20,138 nt of DNA, from the IMG/VR virus record IMGVR_UViG_3300032073_000352, positions 1 through 20,138 of that record. One strand, given 5' to 3'. The stretch's first letter is position 1, and every line of letters starts with the position of its first letter. The stretch is from a virus. The position numbers and the translations under genes were made by a program. Below are positions 5,075-11,651 of this stretch, piece after piece. The notes under the pieces were generated by a model that had not been told where the DNA came from, ran no database searches, and was given only the letters and a program-made list of their open reading frames with translations.

Positions 5075-6800
5075 AGTAAGTGAATGGTCAGACAAATATA
5101 GAGTTCTGACTAGCGAATCATCTGCTGAAGCTGGTCAATGGAAAACTAGCAGAGCAGAATACCAAAGAGGTATGATGGATGCGGTCAATGATCGTAGAAT
5201 AGAACGCATCGTCATTATGAGTTCATCACAGGTTGGCAAGACTGAGATGATAAATAATATTATTGGTTATCACATTGCCCACGATCCAGCACCTATGCTT
5301 GTCGTCATGCCAACTTTAGAAATGGCAAGATCATGGAGTACCCAAAGATTCTCAAAAATGATTGCTGCTTCTGAATCTTTGAAACATAAAATCAAAGACT
5401 CCAAAGCTAGAGATTCAGGTAACACAATATTATCTAAATCTTTTGCTGGTGGTTTCGTTGTAATGACTGGATCAAACTCGCCAGCTTCATTAGCATCCAG
5501 ACCATGTAGGATTGTTTTGCTTGATGAGGTTGATCGTTACGAAACAACAAGCGAGGGTGACGCTGTTTCATTAACAATTAAAAGAACTGCAACATTTGCC
5601 AATCGTAAGATCATAATGACATCAACGCCAACGATAGATGGTGCATCAAGAATACAAGATGCTTGGGAAGAATCAGATAAAAGATATTTCCATGTGCCTT
5701 GTCCGCATTGTAAACAAAAACAAGTTTTAGAATGGCAGAATGTTAAATGGGATGATGCAAAAGATGCACACATGGTTTGTATTCATTGCGGTTCTGTCAT
5801 AGAAGAAAAAGATAAGATATGGATGATTAGAAATGGTGAATGGATAGCAGAAGAAGAAACTTATAAAACTGCTGGTTTTCATCTTAACGAACTGTATTCA
5901 GTTTGGCGATCATGGTCAGAAGTCGTTGAATCTTTTTTAAATGCAAAAGAACATCCAGACCAACTTAGAGTTTTTGTTAACACTTCACTTGGTCAGGTGT
6001 GGCAATCTGATGGTGAAGAAATTGAAAGTGATTCGTTGTTAAATCGTAGAGAAAACTACGATGCACAATCTATACCTGAACCAGTTGTATTACTTACTTG
6101 CGGTATTGATGTGCAGTCAGATCGGATCGAGTCACAAGTTGTCGGTTGGTCGGCTGAAAATCAGATGTATGTCGTGGATTATCAAATCATGTTTGGTGAT
6201 CCGAACCAATTGCAAGTCTGGAATGAACTAGATGAATATTTAAAATCCTCATTCAAAACAGAAGATGGCAGAACCATAAAAATATCTATCACTTGTATTG
6301 ACTCAGGTTATGCAACTCAAAATGTTTACGCTTTTTGCAAACAAAGACAGGGAAGAAGAATCTTTGCAATTAAAGGGCAGAGTCAACATGGTAAACCAAT
6401 TGCCAATAGACCAACGCAATCAGGTAAACAAAGAGTGCAACTTTTCCCAGTAGGTACAGATTCAGCAAAAGACACTTTATTTTCATGGCTTAATATTGAT
6501 GAAGTTAGATCAGGTTACATCCATTTTCCTGCTGATGTCGATGAGGAATACTTCAAACAATTAACATCTGAAAGAAGAATAATCAAATATTACAAAGGAC
6601 AAAAGCGCATGGAATGGAAACAGATCAGAGAAAGAAACGAAGTCTTAGATACTTGGGTTTATAACATCGCTGGTTTTTATATTTTGAATCCTGATTTAGA
6701 AAGTCTAAAAAACAAAGCTATAGATACAAAACAAACTCAAAGAAAAGGAAGAACTAACAAACAAAGACGCAACCAAAATTGGGTAAATTCTTGGAGATAA
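4986..6800 (+). CDS. Terminase large subunit (lambda gpA family)
   Basis: This ATPase-nuclease motor packages DNA and cuts concatemers. Numbered from ATG 4986 (604 aa): the gpA-like N-terminal signature KVSEWSDKYRVLTSESSAE at 30-48, Walker A SSSQVGKT at 79-86, Walker B IVLLDE at 176-181, coupling motif TSTPT at 212-216, a zinc ribbon with C239/C242 and C265/C268, then a nuclease domain with acidic residues D375 (GIDVQ), D439 (CIDSGY) and E552/D555 (NEVLDTW). The ATG lies 89 nt inside the small-subunit gene; the family signature begins only near residue 22, so a later non-ATG start (TTG 5019) is possible. The C-terminus is a basic, Gln/Arg-rich tail, probably the portal contact. Confidence 0.95.
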   Translation: MNLQKNPYQKQLNSIWNKSIATFKAPEKLKVSEWSDKYRVLTSESSAEAGQWKTSRAEYQRGMMDAVNDRRIERIVIMSSSQVGKTEMINNIIGYHIAHDPAPMLVVMPTLEMARSWSTQRFSKMIAASESLKHKIKDSKARDSGNTILSKSFAGGFVVMTGSNSPASLASRPCRIVLLDEVDRYETTSEGDAVSLTIKRTATFANRKIIMTSTPTIDGASRIQDAWEESDKRYFHVPCPHCKQKQVLEWQNVKWDDAKDAHMVCIHCGSVIEEKDKIWMIRNGEWIAEEETYKTAGFHLNELYSVWRSWSEVVESFLNAKEHPDQLRVFVNTSLGQVWQSDGEEIESDSLLNRRENYDAQSIPEPVVLLTCGIDVQSDRIESQVVGWSAENQMYVVDYQIMFGDPNQLQVWNELDEYLKSSFKTEDGRTIKISITCIDSGYATQNVYAFCKQRQGRRIFAIKGQSQHGKPIANRPTQSGKQRVQLFPVGTDSAKDTLFSWLNIDEVRSGYIHFPADVDEEYFKQLTSERRIIKYYKGQKRMEWKQIRERNEVLDTWVYNIAGFYILNPDLESLKNKAIDTKQTQRKGRTNKQRRNQNWVNSWR

Positions 6801-6860: not shown

Positions 6861-7451
6861 ATGGCAAATCAATTTGATCGTGTAAATTACCCTAAACAAG
6901 AGCCAGATGAATTAGTCATTGGTGATCGTTGGGTTTGGCGTAGAGATGATCTTGTTTCAGATTATCCATTAGCTTCTTATGAACTCAGTTATGAATTTCA
7001 CGAAGATTCTGGTGGTGGCGGTTCACATAAATTTACAATAGCTGCTACAGAAGCAGATGATTCATATTTAGTTGAAATAGCTTCAAGCACAACTGCATCT
7101 TTAGCAGATGGTGATTTTATCTGGTATGCCTTTATCACTAGATCATCTGATTCACAAAGAGTATCAGTAGATGAAGGCAGAACAACTATTGTCAAAAACT
7201 TTGCAAACACAAATGCAGACTTACGAAGTCATGCTAAGAAAGTTTTAGATGCCATTGAAGCAGTCATAGAAAATAGGGCAACTGTAGATCAATCATCTTT
7301 TTCTATTGCTGGCAGATCGTTGTCAAGAATGTCTATAGATGAATTACTGACTTTAAAAAATAGATACAAGGCTGAATATTTGAAAGAGATAAAAGAAGCA
7401 AGAATCAAAAACAAACAAAGATCAGGTAATACAATCGGAGTTAAATTCTAA
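6861..7451 (+). CDS. Beta-domain / gpW-like head-tail connector fusion
   Basis: The 196-aa protein has two parts. Residues 15-112 are beta-rich with a glycine loop (GGGGS) and read like a small immunoglobulin-like domain. Residues 117-186 are helical and match the lambda gpW layout: a first helix (LRSHAKKVLDAIEAVIENRA), a short hairpin (SSFSIAGRSLSRM) and a second helix (IDELLTLKNRYKAEY). GpW plugs the portal after packaging and gives the site for gpFII. The gene lies between terminase and portal, exactly the lambda W position, and its stop overlaps the portal ATG (TAATG). Lambda gpW is only 68 aa, so the N-terminal domain is an addition, perhaps displayed near the head neck. Confidence 0.72.
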   Translation: MANQFDRVNYPKQEPDELVIGDRWVWRRDDLVSDYPLASYELSYEFHEDSGGGGSHKFTIAATEADDSYLVEIASSTTASLADGDFIWYAFITRSSDSQRVSVDEGRTTIVKNFANTNADLRSHAKKVLDAIEAVIENRATVDQSSFSIAGRSLSRMSIDELLTLKNRYKAEYLKEIKEARIKNKQRSGNTIGVKF

Positions 7452-8953
7452 TGGCTTGGTACGACAGATTAACAGGTAGAACAAGGAAGAAAAAAATACC
7501 AAAGATAAGAAAATATCAAGGTGCAAATACTGGCAGGTTGTTCTCTGACTTCATGCAAACTTCTACATCTGCTGATAGAGAAATTAAAGATCAACTAAGA
7601 TTATTAAGAGATAGATCAAGAGATTTAGCAAGAAATGATTCTTATGTCCAAAGATATTTGCATCTGATGCAAAGCAATATTGTTGGTTCAAATGGCATAA
7701 GACTTTCGATGAAAGCAAGAAACGATGATGGTTCTTTAGATTTAGTTGCAAATAGAATCATAGAACAGCAATGGAGAAATTGGTGCAAGCTAGGTAGTTG
7801 TACAACTAACGGAAGATTATCTTTCATTGATTGTCAAAAGTTATTTATTGAATCTTTAGCAAGAGATGGTGAAGTATTAGTACGTCACGTCAAATCAAGA
7901 GATTCAGAATTTGGTTACAAGATTGAGTTTTTAGAAGCTGACCATTTAGATGAAAAGAAAAACGAAGATGCTAAAGGATCAGGTAATAAAATTAAAATGG
8001 GTGTTGAACTTAATCAAAGTCAAAAACCAATAGCGTATTATCTTTTTAAAAACCATCCATTTGATAATACACATCAAAGTACTACTCAACACATAAGAGT
8101 AAATGCTGATGAACTTATACACGCATACATCCCACAAAGACCAGAACAAAACAGAGGAGTACCCTTTACTGCTTCTGCAATGGCAAACATAAAATTGTTA
8201 AATGGCTATTTAGAAGCAGAGATAGTTGCAGCAAGAACTGCTGCAAGCAAAATGGGATTCTTTGTATCTGGTGACGGTGATCAATATGTTGGTGATGGTG
8301 AAGATGATGAATACGTTCCAATTATGAATGCTGAAGCAGGTACTTTTGAACAATTACCTAGTGGCATGGACTTCAAAGAGTTTGATCCATCGCATCCAAC
8401 ATCTGCTTTTGAACCATTTACAACGCAAGTATTGAGAAGCATTGCTTCAGGCTTAAACATTTCTTATCACGCACTTACTAATGATCTTAGTTCAGTAAAC
8501 TATTCATCATTGCGTGCTGGTGCTTTAGAAGATCGTGAGATGTATAGGTTATATCAAAGATTTACAATAGATCATTTTGTAAGACCAGTATTTGAAAAAT
8601 GGTTAGAGATGGCTATATCTTCTGGCGCAATATCTACATCGCCATCTACAAATCAACCTTTACCAATAAGCAGATACGATAAGTTTGCTTTAGCAGCTAA
8701 CTTTATACCTAGAAGCTTCTCTTGGGTTGATCCACAAAAAGAAATGATGGCTTCTATAAGCGGTATGCAATCTGGATTAGTTACATTTCAAGATGTGCAA
8801 GCTAATTATGGTAGAGATGTTGAAGAACTTTTTGAACAGCATGAAAGAGAACAAAAGCTTGCTGAACAATACGGTATCAAAACTGCGTTTCAACCTTTTG
8901 GTATGAAGATACCAGTTGAAGCAGATATACAAGGTGGTAATGATGGCGACTAA
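7451..8953 (+). CDS. Portal protein (lambda gpB family)
   Basis: The 500-aa product is the dodecameric vertex through which DNA enters and leaves. Lambda-family features include the N-terminal helical segment (SADREIKDQLRLLRDRSRDL followed by ARNDSYVQRYL), an NIVGSNGI motif at 76-83, a GEVLVRH strand, RGVPFTASAM at 235-244 and the signature SSVNYSSLR at 347-355. Length is close to lambda gpB (533 aa). The C-terminal 60 residues are helical and acidic, as in the portal clip/crown. GGAG at 7437-7440 provides a ribosome site 10 nt before the ATG. The last bases overlap the start of the capsid-protease gene. Confidence 0.94.
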   Translation: MAWYDRLTGRTRKKKIPKIRKYQGANTGRLFSDFMQTSTSADREIKDQLRLLRDRSRDLARNDSYVQRYLHLMQSNIVGSNGIRLSMKARNDDGSLDLVANRIIEQQWRNWCKLGSCTTNGRLSFIDCQKLFIESLARDGEVLVRHVKSRDSEFGYKIEFLEADHLDEKKNEDAKGSGNKIKMGVELNQSQKPIAYYLFKNHPFDNTHQSTTQHIRVNADELIHAYIPQRPEQNRGVPFTASAMANIKLLNGYLEAEIVAARTAASKMGFFVSGDGDQYVGDGEDDEYVPIMNAEAGTFEQLPSGMDFKEFDPSHPTSAFEPFTTQVLRSIASGLNISYHALTNDLSSVNYSSLRAGALEDREMYRLYQRFTIDHFVRPVFEKWLEMAISSGAISTSPSTNQPLPISRYDKFALAANFIPRSFSWVDPQKEMMASISGMQSGLVTFQDVQANYGRDVEELFEQHEREQKLAEQYGIKTAFQPFGMKIPVEADIQGGNDGD

Positions 8954-11651
8954 CTTTCCAACTAAAGATGACGATAAAAAAGTTAGTTTGCGAAACTCTA
9001 ACTATCCTCAGTTTGATTATGACTTTATTGCTGGTGTCAAAGAAAACGATCCTGATATTTACAAAGCTGGTGGCAACATCAGAGGTAATGAATCATTTAA
9101 TTTATGGACAAAAGCTAGAAACGGTGAAGAAACAGATGGTGTCATTAGTTGGATTAAAGAAAGGGAAGCATGGGCAGCTAGACATTTTGAGGATGGCGCA
9201 CAATTTAAATCAGGTGACAAAGCTGGTAGACCATCAAACATAGCTGGTGTCATTGCACAAATGAAATGGGGAGTGATTGGAACTCTAGGTGAACAAAAAA
9301 TGAAAGATGTTGTTTTAGAAGCTATAAAATATGTTGAACAAAAAGAATCAGGTTCAGCGAGTCAGGCTCAACAAGATAGACAAATTTCAGCAAAAACAGA
9401 AAAAGCATTAGAAAATAAAGTAAAAGAACATAACGAAGAAGTTAATAATGCAGCTTCTAAAAGAACAACTTTAGGAACACTTAAAAAGGTCTATGACAGG
9501 GGTATTGGTGCATACAATACCAATCCAGCATCAGTCAGACCTAATGTGTCTAGTCCGCAAACTTGGGCTATGGCACGAGTAAATAGTTTCCTTTTCGCAT
9601 TGCGAAATGGAAGATTTCAAGGCGGTAAACACGATACTGATTTACTGCCTGAATCACATCCTTTATCATCAAAAGACAAAGAGGAAAAAGCGATGAAAAA
9701 CAAAGACGAAAGACATATCATAAATGTTGAAGAATCCGATGATAGTTATACCATCGAATTTGCAAAACATCATGGTATGGAAGAAGAAATGGAAATGGAA
9801 GAAAATGAATCTGAAAAAGATGAGATGGAATCCAGACCATATCACGATGAAGATGAAGAAAAAGATAAGGACAGATCAAATGCAGAGGATATTGTCTATC
9901 GTACTGTTGATCTTTCTAAAGCATCTTACATTGATGAAGAAAATAGAAGGGTGAGAATAGGCGTAAGTTCTGAAGAACCTGTTGAAAGGGAATTTGGAAT
10001 GGAAGTTTTATCTCATTCTGAGGGTGATATTGAAACTGACTTTATTGCTAGTGGAAGATCACCTTTATTGCTAGATCACGACATGACTAAACAGATTGGA
10101 GTGGTTGAACAATATAAATTAAATTCTTCTGAAAAACGCGCAGTAGCAATAGTTCGCTTTAGTCGAAGCAAACTTGGAGAAGAAATATTTAATGATGTTC
10201 GAGATGGTATTCGTCAGAATATAAGTGTCGGATATAAGATAAACAACATGGAAAGAGTTAAATCAACTGATTCTGATAAACCTATGTATAGAGTTCAACA
10301 CACACCTTTAGAAGTGTCTGTTGTTTCTGTACCTGCGGATCAATCAAAAGCAGTTGGCGTAGGTCGTTCCAAAAACAAACTTTCTAATATAGAGGTAAAA
10401 ACAATGACTGACGAAGTTAAAAATGAAATAAACCTTGAAGAAGTTAGAGAAAAATCTGCTGCTGAAGCTAGAGAACAATTTCAAAGAAATTCAAAAGAAA
10501 TTATTGATCTAGCTGTCAAGCACGACAGACGTGATCTAGCTGACAAGGCTATTCAAGAAGGAATATCAGTTGAAGAATTTAGAGGTGTTTTGTTAGACAA
10601 TATTTCTAACGACAAACCTTTAGAAACTGCTGAGATTGGTCTTTCTAAAAATGAAGTGCGTAAATTTTCAGTAATGAAAGCTATCAATGCTTTAGCTAAC
10701 CCTACTGATAAAAGGGCGCAAAAAGAAGCTGAATTTGAATTTGAATGTTCAGAAGAAGCAGCTAAACACTATGGCAGAACTGCTCAAGGTATTATGTTAC
10801 CACCTGAAGTTCTATCTAATTGGTCAACTAGGGACTTAAATGCTTCTGATGATGCAGGTCTTATTGGTCAAGATTTTAGAGCAGGTGACTTTATTGACGC
10901 ATTGAGAAATGCTTCATCTGTAATGCCATTGGCTAGAACTTTGAACGGTTTATCTGGCGATGTAAAAATCCCTAAGAAAACTTCTGCTTCAAGTGCTGCT
11001 TTCATATCATCTGAAGGTGGTGCTGCTGGTGAATCAGAAATGGTTATCGGCTCTGTAACTATGTCACCAAAAACTCTTGGTGCATTTACAGATGTAACTA
11101 GACAGCTAATGATTCAATCTTCATTAGATGTTGAAAACTTGATCAGAGATGATTTAGCACAATCTATGGCTATTGCTATTGATAATGCTGCTCTTGAAGG
11201 CTCTGGCTCTAGTGGAAACCCAACTGGTATTACTAACACAAGTGGTATTAATACAGTTTCACTTTCTAGTGCTGCTGCACCAACTTTTGCAGAAATGGTT
11301 TCTATGGAAACTGCTGCTGCTGTTGATAATGCTTTATTAGGTAAATTATCTTACATAATGCACCCTAGTAACTATGGCACACTAAAAACTACTGAGAAAG
11401 CTAGTAACACAGCACAATTTGTTGCTGCTAACAATGAAGTTAACGGTTATCCTGTAGTTGTATCTGCACAATTAACTGCAAACAACTACGTCTTTGGTAA
11501 CTTTGATGACTTACTTGTTGGTTTCTTTGGTGGACTAGATATAGTTGTTGATCCATTTACTGCTTCAACTTCTGGAACAGTAAGGGTTGTAGCTTTACAA
11601 AGCATGGATGTAGCGGTTAGACACGCTGTATCTTTTGTAGCTGCAAGTTAA
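8943..11651 (+). CDS. Fused N-terminal domain + HK97 prohead protease + major capsid protein
   Basis: One uninterrupted frame encodes three modules (902 aa from ATG 8943, preceded by AAGG at 8931-8934; a TTG at 8916 is a less likely start). Residues 1-245 hold motifs REAWAARHFEDG and TWAMARVNSF, which I recall from marine phage proteins of unknown role. After an acidic linker (about 265-315) comes an HK97-type prohead protease with His379 (LLLDHD), Ser428 (ISVGY) and the PLEVSVVSVPAD strand around 455-466. From about 488 a charged helical delta/scaffold region precedes an HK97-fold capsid protein (GIMLPPEVL onward to the C-terminus). Two in-frame ATGs with good ribosome sites lie at the module borders (9693, 10404), so separate protease and capsid products are predicted. 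Stop overlaps no gene; hairpins follow. Confidence 0.9.
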   Translation: MATNFPTKDDDKKVSLRNSNYPQFDYDFIAGVKENDPDIYKAGGNIRGNESFNLWTKARNGEETDGVISWIKEREAWAARHFEDGAQFKSGDKAGRPSNIAGVIAQMKWGVIGTLGEQKMKDVVLEAIKYVEQKESGSASQAQQDRQISAKTEKALENKVKEHNEEVNNAASKRTTLGTLKKVYDRGIGAYNTNPASVRPNVSSPQTWAMARVNSFLFALRNGRFQGGKHDTDLLPESHPLSSKDKEEKAMKNKDERHIINVEESDDSYTIEFAKHHGMEEEMEMEENESEKDEMESRPYHDEDEEKDKDRSNAEDIVYRTVDLSKASYIDEENRRVRIGVSSEEPVEREFGMEVLSHSEGDIETDFIASGRSPLLLDHDMTKQIGVVEQYKLNSSEKRAVAIVRFSRSKLGEEIFNDVRDGIRQNISVGYKINNMERVKSTDSDKPMYRVQHTPLEVSVVSVPADQSKAVGVGRSKNKLSNIEVKTMTDEVKNEINLEEVREKSAAEAREQFQRNSKEIIDLAVKHDRRDLADKAIQEGISVEEFRGVLLDNISNDKPLETAEIGLSKNEVRKFSVMKAINALANPTDKRAQKEAEFEFECSEEAAKHYGRTAQGIMLPPEVLSNWSTRDLNASDDAGLIGQDFRAGDFIDALRNASSVMPLARTLNGLSGDVKIPKKTSASSAAFISSEGGAAGESEMVIGSVTMSPKTLGAFTDVTRQLMIQSSLDVENLIRDDLAQSMAIAIDNAALEGSGSSGNPTGITNTSGINTVSLSSAAAPTFAEMVSMETAAAVDNALLGKLSYIMHPSNYGTLKTTEKASNTAQFVAANNEVNGYPVVVSAQLTANNYVFGNFDDLLVGFFGGLDIVVDPFTASTSGTVRVVALQSMDVAVRHAVSFVAAS
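9680..9695 (+). promoter_or_regulatory. Internal ribosome site and ATG at the protease boundary
   Basis: AGAGGA at 9680-9685 lies 7 nt before the in-frame ATG at 9693, codon 251 of the long fused gene. Initiation here would produce the prohead protease-capsid portion (652 aa) without the N-terminal domain. The match and spacing are as good as any gene start in the window. Sequence evidence only. Confidence 0.5.
10391..10406 (+). promoter_or_regulatory. Internal ribosome site and ATG at the capsid boundary
   Basis: AGAGG at 10391-10395 lies 8 nt before the in-frame ATG at 10404, codon 488 of the long frame. The resulting 415-aa protein would begin with a charged helical region of about 100 residues followed by the capsid fold, the same plan as HK97 gp5 with its removable delta domain. 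This supports independent high-level synthesis of the capsid subunit, comparable to the nested C/Nu3 arrangement of lambda. Confidence 0.6.

Follow-up and report, generated by a model that had tools for sequence, protein, structure and literature searches.

A conserved start codon at the border between protease and capsid, identified by comparative sequence analysis, probably provides a marine phage with capsid subunits that carry a protease and others that do not. The window, i.e. the whole stretch of 20,138 bases analyzed here, is an IMG/VR virus record with the gene order of a tailed-phage head and tail module, in which the portal gene is followed by a fused open reading frame (ORF, 8943–11651) and then by tail genes. 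We consider it likely that this single frame yields three nested capsid products, with starts at 8943, 9693 and 10404, and that the long and short subunits co-assemble.

Anatomy of the fused reading frame

The frame of 902 codons stays open from 8943 to 11651 and has no internal stop. It was originally predicted to hold an N-terminal domain, a prohead protease and an HK97-fold capsid protein, and all three modules are matched by Pfam: DUF5824 at residues 160–218, Peptidase_S78 (PF04586) at residues 373–473 and Phage_capsid (PF05065) at residues 644–900. The PHROG 617 family, 'major head protein', spans residues 319–900 (E = 2.8e-131). The locus has the following features.

7451–8953: portal, directly before the fused ORF in gene order
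8943–11651, + strand: fused ORF, 902 aa, with N-domain, protease, delta-like scaffold and HK97-fold capsid
8943–9683, + strand: N-terminal domain (Pfam DUF5824 at 9420–9596; structure model; linker at aa 248–258)
9765–9923, + strand: acidic low-confidence linker upstream of the protease (AlphaFold model)
9945–10367, + strand: S78 prohead protease (Pfam)
10077, 10224 and 10311, + strand: predicted catalytic residues His379, Ser428 and Glu457 (invariance; analogy with HK97 gp4)
10404–10850, + strand: helical delta-like scaffold domain, end approximate (helices at aa 498–625 and a low-confidence linker)
10851–11651, + strand: HK97-fold capsid, approximate mature part, ~27 kDa (8gta homology; Foldseek)

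The AlphaFold model consists of folded blocks parted by low-confidence linkers, including residues 248–258, 275–327, 475–498 and 631–647. The capsid block is predicted to adopt the HK97 fold: Foldseek matched its model to the R4C capsid (8gta, E = 7e-19) and to HK97 (1ohg, E = 6e-13), and the homology to 8gta begins at residue 640. Cleavage between the delta domain and the capsid would be expected in the linker near residues 631–647 (10833–10883). Residues H379, S428 and E457 are invariant across 54 aligned sequences and are the predicted protease triad, their roles being assigned from HK97 gp4. The model of the N-domain has low confidence (pLDDT 58), and the matches of this domain are mainly unnamed proteins, plus a few that are named prohead protease, XkdF or ChaB.

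Start signals within the window

The strength of SD sequences was scored as the duplex energy with the anti-SD. By this measure, the best three of the 25 in-frame ATGs are 8943 (−7.6), 10404 (−7.1) and 9693 (−6.0), and the value of −6.0 is reached by just two of the 45 out-of-frame ATGs. The three SDs are similar in strength to those of the window's best gene starts, and the local RNA at the three sites is less structured than at ~87–96% of in-frame positions. The signals and the predicted nested products are listed below, with z-scores from the synonymous recoding described in the next sections.

8931–8937, + strand: SD-like AAGGTGG ahead of the full-length start (duplex energy −7.6)
9680–9685, + strand: internal SD AGAGGA, 7 nt before ATG 9693 (conserved, z = −7.2)
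10391–10395, + strand: internal SD AGAGG, 8 nt before ATG 10404 (conserved, z = −7.8 in the close family, −9.4 over 104 representatives)
9693–11651, + strand: predicted nested product protease-delta-capsid, 652 aa, 71 kDa
10404–11651, + strand: predicted nested product delta-capsid precursor, 415 aa, 44 kDa

Both internal SDs are thus present with the motifs and distances that the original prediction gave. Its placement of the two starts exactly at module borders holds in part. Met251 (9693) lies inside the linker of residues 248–258 and Met488 (10404) inside that of residues 475–498, so both internal ATGs are located between folded modules of the model, and 10404 marks the border between the protease and the delta domain; the border of the mature capsid is ~150 residues further downstream. 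The shortest product, earlier taken for the capsid alone, would be a delta-capsid precursor of 44 kDa that resembles HK97 gp5. The mechanism had been described as re-initiation; because there is no upstream stop in the window, it would have to be internal initiation. With these corrections, the nested-start interpretation is supported by the sequence comparisons given below.

The three starts of the window have similar SD strengths, so the sequence by itself gives no reason to expect more of the short form. Prediction of the product ratio from the SD strengths of the gene start and the border start was attempted for 21 annotated phages and dropped, the mean energies of −4.9 and −5.2, respectively, being uninformative.

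Conservation in close relatives

The close family comprises 80 IMG/VR relatives, retrieved with six search patterns; one of the six included Met488, which causes a slight ascertainment bias at this site. Every relative that covers site 251 has ATG there. At site 488, a start codon is present in 80 of 80 relatives, ATG in 79 of them and GTG in the remaining one (L050). The SD cores AGAGG, AAAGG or GAGG are retained, though the encoded residues vary (K-V, E-V, R-V, E-K, R-I).

For the synonymous-recoding test, we used 18 representatives with less than 85% identity. Both site 251 (z = −7.2) and site 488 (z = −7.8) have stronger SD energies than synonymous recoding predicts. A GAG codon is located four codons before Met251 in 16 of these 18 sequences, although just 15.5% of the Glu codons of the genes are GAG. 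The column of Met488 has the lowest flanking identity among the Met columns (0.43), yet Met is retained in 17 of 18 sequences, and the exception has GTG. Within the close family, 9693 is as clear a candidate start as 10404.

Conservation across diverse relatives

Broad scans covered viral contigs and one genome per prokaryote species, with search patterns that avoid the border and Met488. With them, the set grew to 256 fused protease-capsid loci, which form 104 clusters at 75% identity. An in-frame ATG is present 8–70 codons past the protease in all 104 representatives. The mean SD energy at the first border ATG is −5.83, compared to −3.77 upon synonymous recoding (z = −9.4), and the outcome is the same if any ATG in the border interval is allowed (z = −8.7). 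Control ATGs in the protease (z = +1.1), the delta domain (+6.9) and the capsid (+6.3) have no signal or avoid SDs. A chance origin of the border SD-ATG is made very unlikely by the synonymous-recoding null and these in-gene controls and was rejected. The distances between SD and ATG at the border cluster at 4–9 nt, the normal spacing, and no such peak was found at capsid-internal ATGs. In 59 of the 104 representatives, the border Met is followed by Ser, Thr, Pro or Ala, a profile resembling that of protein starts.

Every named phage, whether of roseobacters, cyanobacteria or other proteobacteria (mostly 35–57% identity), carries an in-frame ATG where the protease meets the delta domain, and a clear SD precedes it in most of them. 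In the cyanophages S-CBS1, S-CBS3 and S-LBS1 the border ATG is present and the SD is weak or absent, as in roughly a tenth of the 104 representatives. Pseudomonas phage LPPA33 has a capsid of a different Pfam domain (PF25209) that also gives a Mu gpT-like match. Its protease/capsid border has GAGGA-ATG, and SD and ATG are kept in 80 of 80 relatives. The start between the N-domain and the protease (9693, as opposed to 8943) is limited to relatives with the N-terminal extension, and across the diverse ones this tier is less certain (z = −3.1 over 23).

No locus that splits the protease from the capsid was found among the 256, in a retrieval that favors full-length matches and may miss rare splits; in particular, the real stop/start junctions that the original prediction proposed to look for at the protease/capsid border occur in none of the relatives. 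The loss of both internal ribosome sites in relatives, by which it could have been refuted, is not observed: the sites are kept, and the equivalent of site 488 is present in 104 of 104 representatives. Two candidate split loci were rejected. VP882 has one frame, and its other genes are annotated on the opposite strand. L250, from a Haematospirillum genome, has a fused gene plus a second capsid; this stand-alone capsid paralogue (5277–6366) directly follows the fused gene and has a strong SD-like stretch, GGAGG, before its first ATG.

The absence of a split in the 256 loci suggests that the fusion is also selected. Selection on the border start at the nucleotide level implies that the short product matters, and the unbroken fusion in the sample that the long product matters too. 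Together they point to a dual use of the frame.

Interpretation of the border signal

The capsid gene of phage R4C is a fusion of 629 codons, and the solved capsid chain corresponds to its C-terminal 268 residues; hence the protease and delta parts are absent from the mature shell chain. The text passages found of the structure paper contain no discussion of capsid processing. This chain is compatible with both an internal start and cleavage and does not separate them. It would also result if only the full-length protein were translated, the protease releasing the capsid by cuts in the linkers and the internal ATGs being idle. Such an account agrees with the frame kept fused in 256 of 256 loci and with the flexible linkers that the AlphaFold model has at the right places. 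We regard it as improbable, since it would place one protease on each of the ~415 subunits, and it leaves unexplained an SD and start codon maintained at one spot beyond synonymous expectation, with start-like spacing and GTG as a substitute.

The location of the SD-like stretch in inter-domain linkers could also suggest that it slows ribosomes at the domain border for folding and starts no translation. A pause, however, needs neither an ATG at a fixed distance of 4–9 nt nor a second residue typical of starts, and the only substitute need not be GTG; we consider this role very unlikely. Slightly less credible still is that the SD-ATG is a fossil of once-separate protease and capsid genes that later fused: distant phages such as phi39:1 do have separate, abutting genes, but the signal persists at 35–40% protein identity amid turnover of codons and residues, which requires ongoing selection.

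Nested starts in one frame would operate as follows. Translation from 8943 would produce N-domain-protease-delta-capsid, the internal SD-ATG at 9693 protease-delta-capsid, and that at 10404 delta-capsid, the counterpart of the HK97 gp5 precursor. Since all products share the capsid C-terminus, long and short subunits could co-assemble through the common shell domain into a mixed shell of many delta-capsid and fewer protease-delta-capsid subunits. The long subunits, whose N-terminal side faces inward, would hold a limited number of proteases there. Once assembly is complete, cuts by the protease at the delta/capsid junction and in its own linkers would leave just the 27 kDa capsid.

The cultured Roseobacter phage CRP-823 matches CRP-831 almost completely in the stretch of the fused gene, but has one extra T between the N-domain and the protease (L084, 2782–3753) that leads to a frameshift and a stop. 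An SD-ATG (AGAGGGCCGCACC-ATG) is located downstream of this stop. If the sequence is right, the protease-capsid would be made from its own start; a sequencing error, use of the annotated upstream overlapping ATG as the start, or re-initiation are also possible.

Variation of the N-terminal module

An insert of ~125 residues was observed inside the N-terminal module of several relatives (L054, L059, L070, L044, L063, L056, L055 and L048). It ends with 'LYYYCVNHxGMGxKI', which resembles a cupredoxin-like copper-site motif. The region upstream of DUF5824 (8943–9400 in the window) exists in two dissimilar versions, 'SLRNSNYPxFD...' and 'PKPTEGMKxEAxxGLxWR...GGTRIGATRAR', that are swapped among close relatives. 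A metagenomic relative (L043, 1–318 and 264–2690) has a frameshift in the N-domain, which could reflect either faulty assembly or another natural split.

In Salinibacter phage 12_1 (L097, 4569–8586), the N-domain (~48% identity) is followed in the same ORF by a different prohead protease, and the HK97-fold capsid is encoded by a separate gene. Both the N-domain/protease ORF and the capsid are annotated merely as hypothetical proteins. A contig of a SAR86-cluster genome (L186, CACEDS010000004.1) bears a protease-capsid fusion with 62% identity, which hints at a SAR86 host for the phage group of the window.

Comparison with known systems

Protein family catalogues already list fused prohead protease/major capsid proteins (PHROG 617 and 4523, NCBIfam NF045541; phages ep3, PPpW-3, Murka and R4C). 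Like these fusions, the window locus combines an S78 protease with an HK97-fold capsid in a gene placed after the portal; unlike them, it has an additional N-terminal DUF5824 module. The fused ORF scores 131.4 bits against NF045541 (cutoff 525), with the match confined to the protease-delta part, and is thus related to this narrow family and not a member of it. In the records of the ep3/PPpW-3/Murka/R4C type that we examined, a single product with one start is annotated and the border start is unmarked.

HK97 gp4 and gp5 have the same functional parts, and the 10404 product would match gp5 (delta and capsid). In HK97 the protease and capsid are separate genes, and the protease is not tethered to the capsid subunit. 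The nested protease/scaffold genes lambda C/Nu3 and P2 O work in a similar way, making an abundant protease-free part from an internal start in the same frame. That part is the scaffold, and the capsid has a gene of its own, whereas at the window locus the nested product would be the capsid itself. The property by which nested internal-start genes are recognized, an SD and start conserved beyond coding constraint, was found here (z = −9.4, with tight spacing). A scaffold domain fused to the capsid has also been reported (PMC10275583).

The logic of the proposed shell, and only the logic, is that of retroviral Gag and Gag-Pol, where a minority of subunits, fused to the protease, assembles together with an untagged majority. 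Gag-Pol arises by frameshift or readthrough and is a C-terminal fusion, in contrast to internal initiation and an N-terminal fusion in the phage, and there is no homology.

For the fused family, a search of the openly licensed full-text literature revealed no account of an internal start that sets the capsid apart from the protease. The fusion itself is known, and it is its conserved internal start that appears to be undescribed.

Implications for capsid assembly

Fused genes pose a puzzle of stoichiometry, as each head needs hundreds of capsid subunits and few proteases. The conserved internal start offers a concrete, testable answer to it. The suggested reason for keeping the fusion is that a protease attached to a small share of the shell subunits would be carried into the head. 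On balance, we favor the broader view that internal initiation at the border is a general feature of phages with fused genes, an overlooked design shared by at least two capsid subfamilies. It would set the ratio of tagged to untagged subunits as a counterpart of Gag-Pol, with the N-domain as an optional marine tier. If this is true, hundreds of genomes contain an unannotated capsid start, and the main structural protein of many phages would be annotated without its major start.
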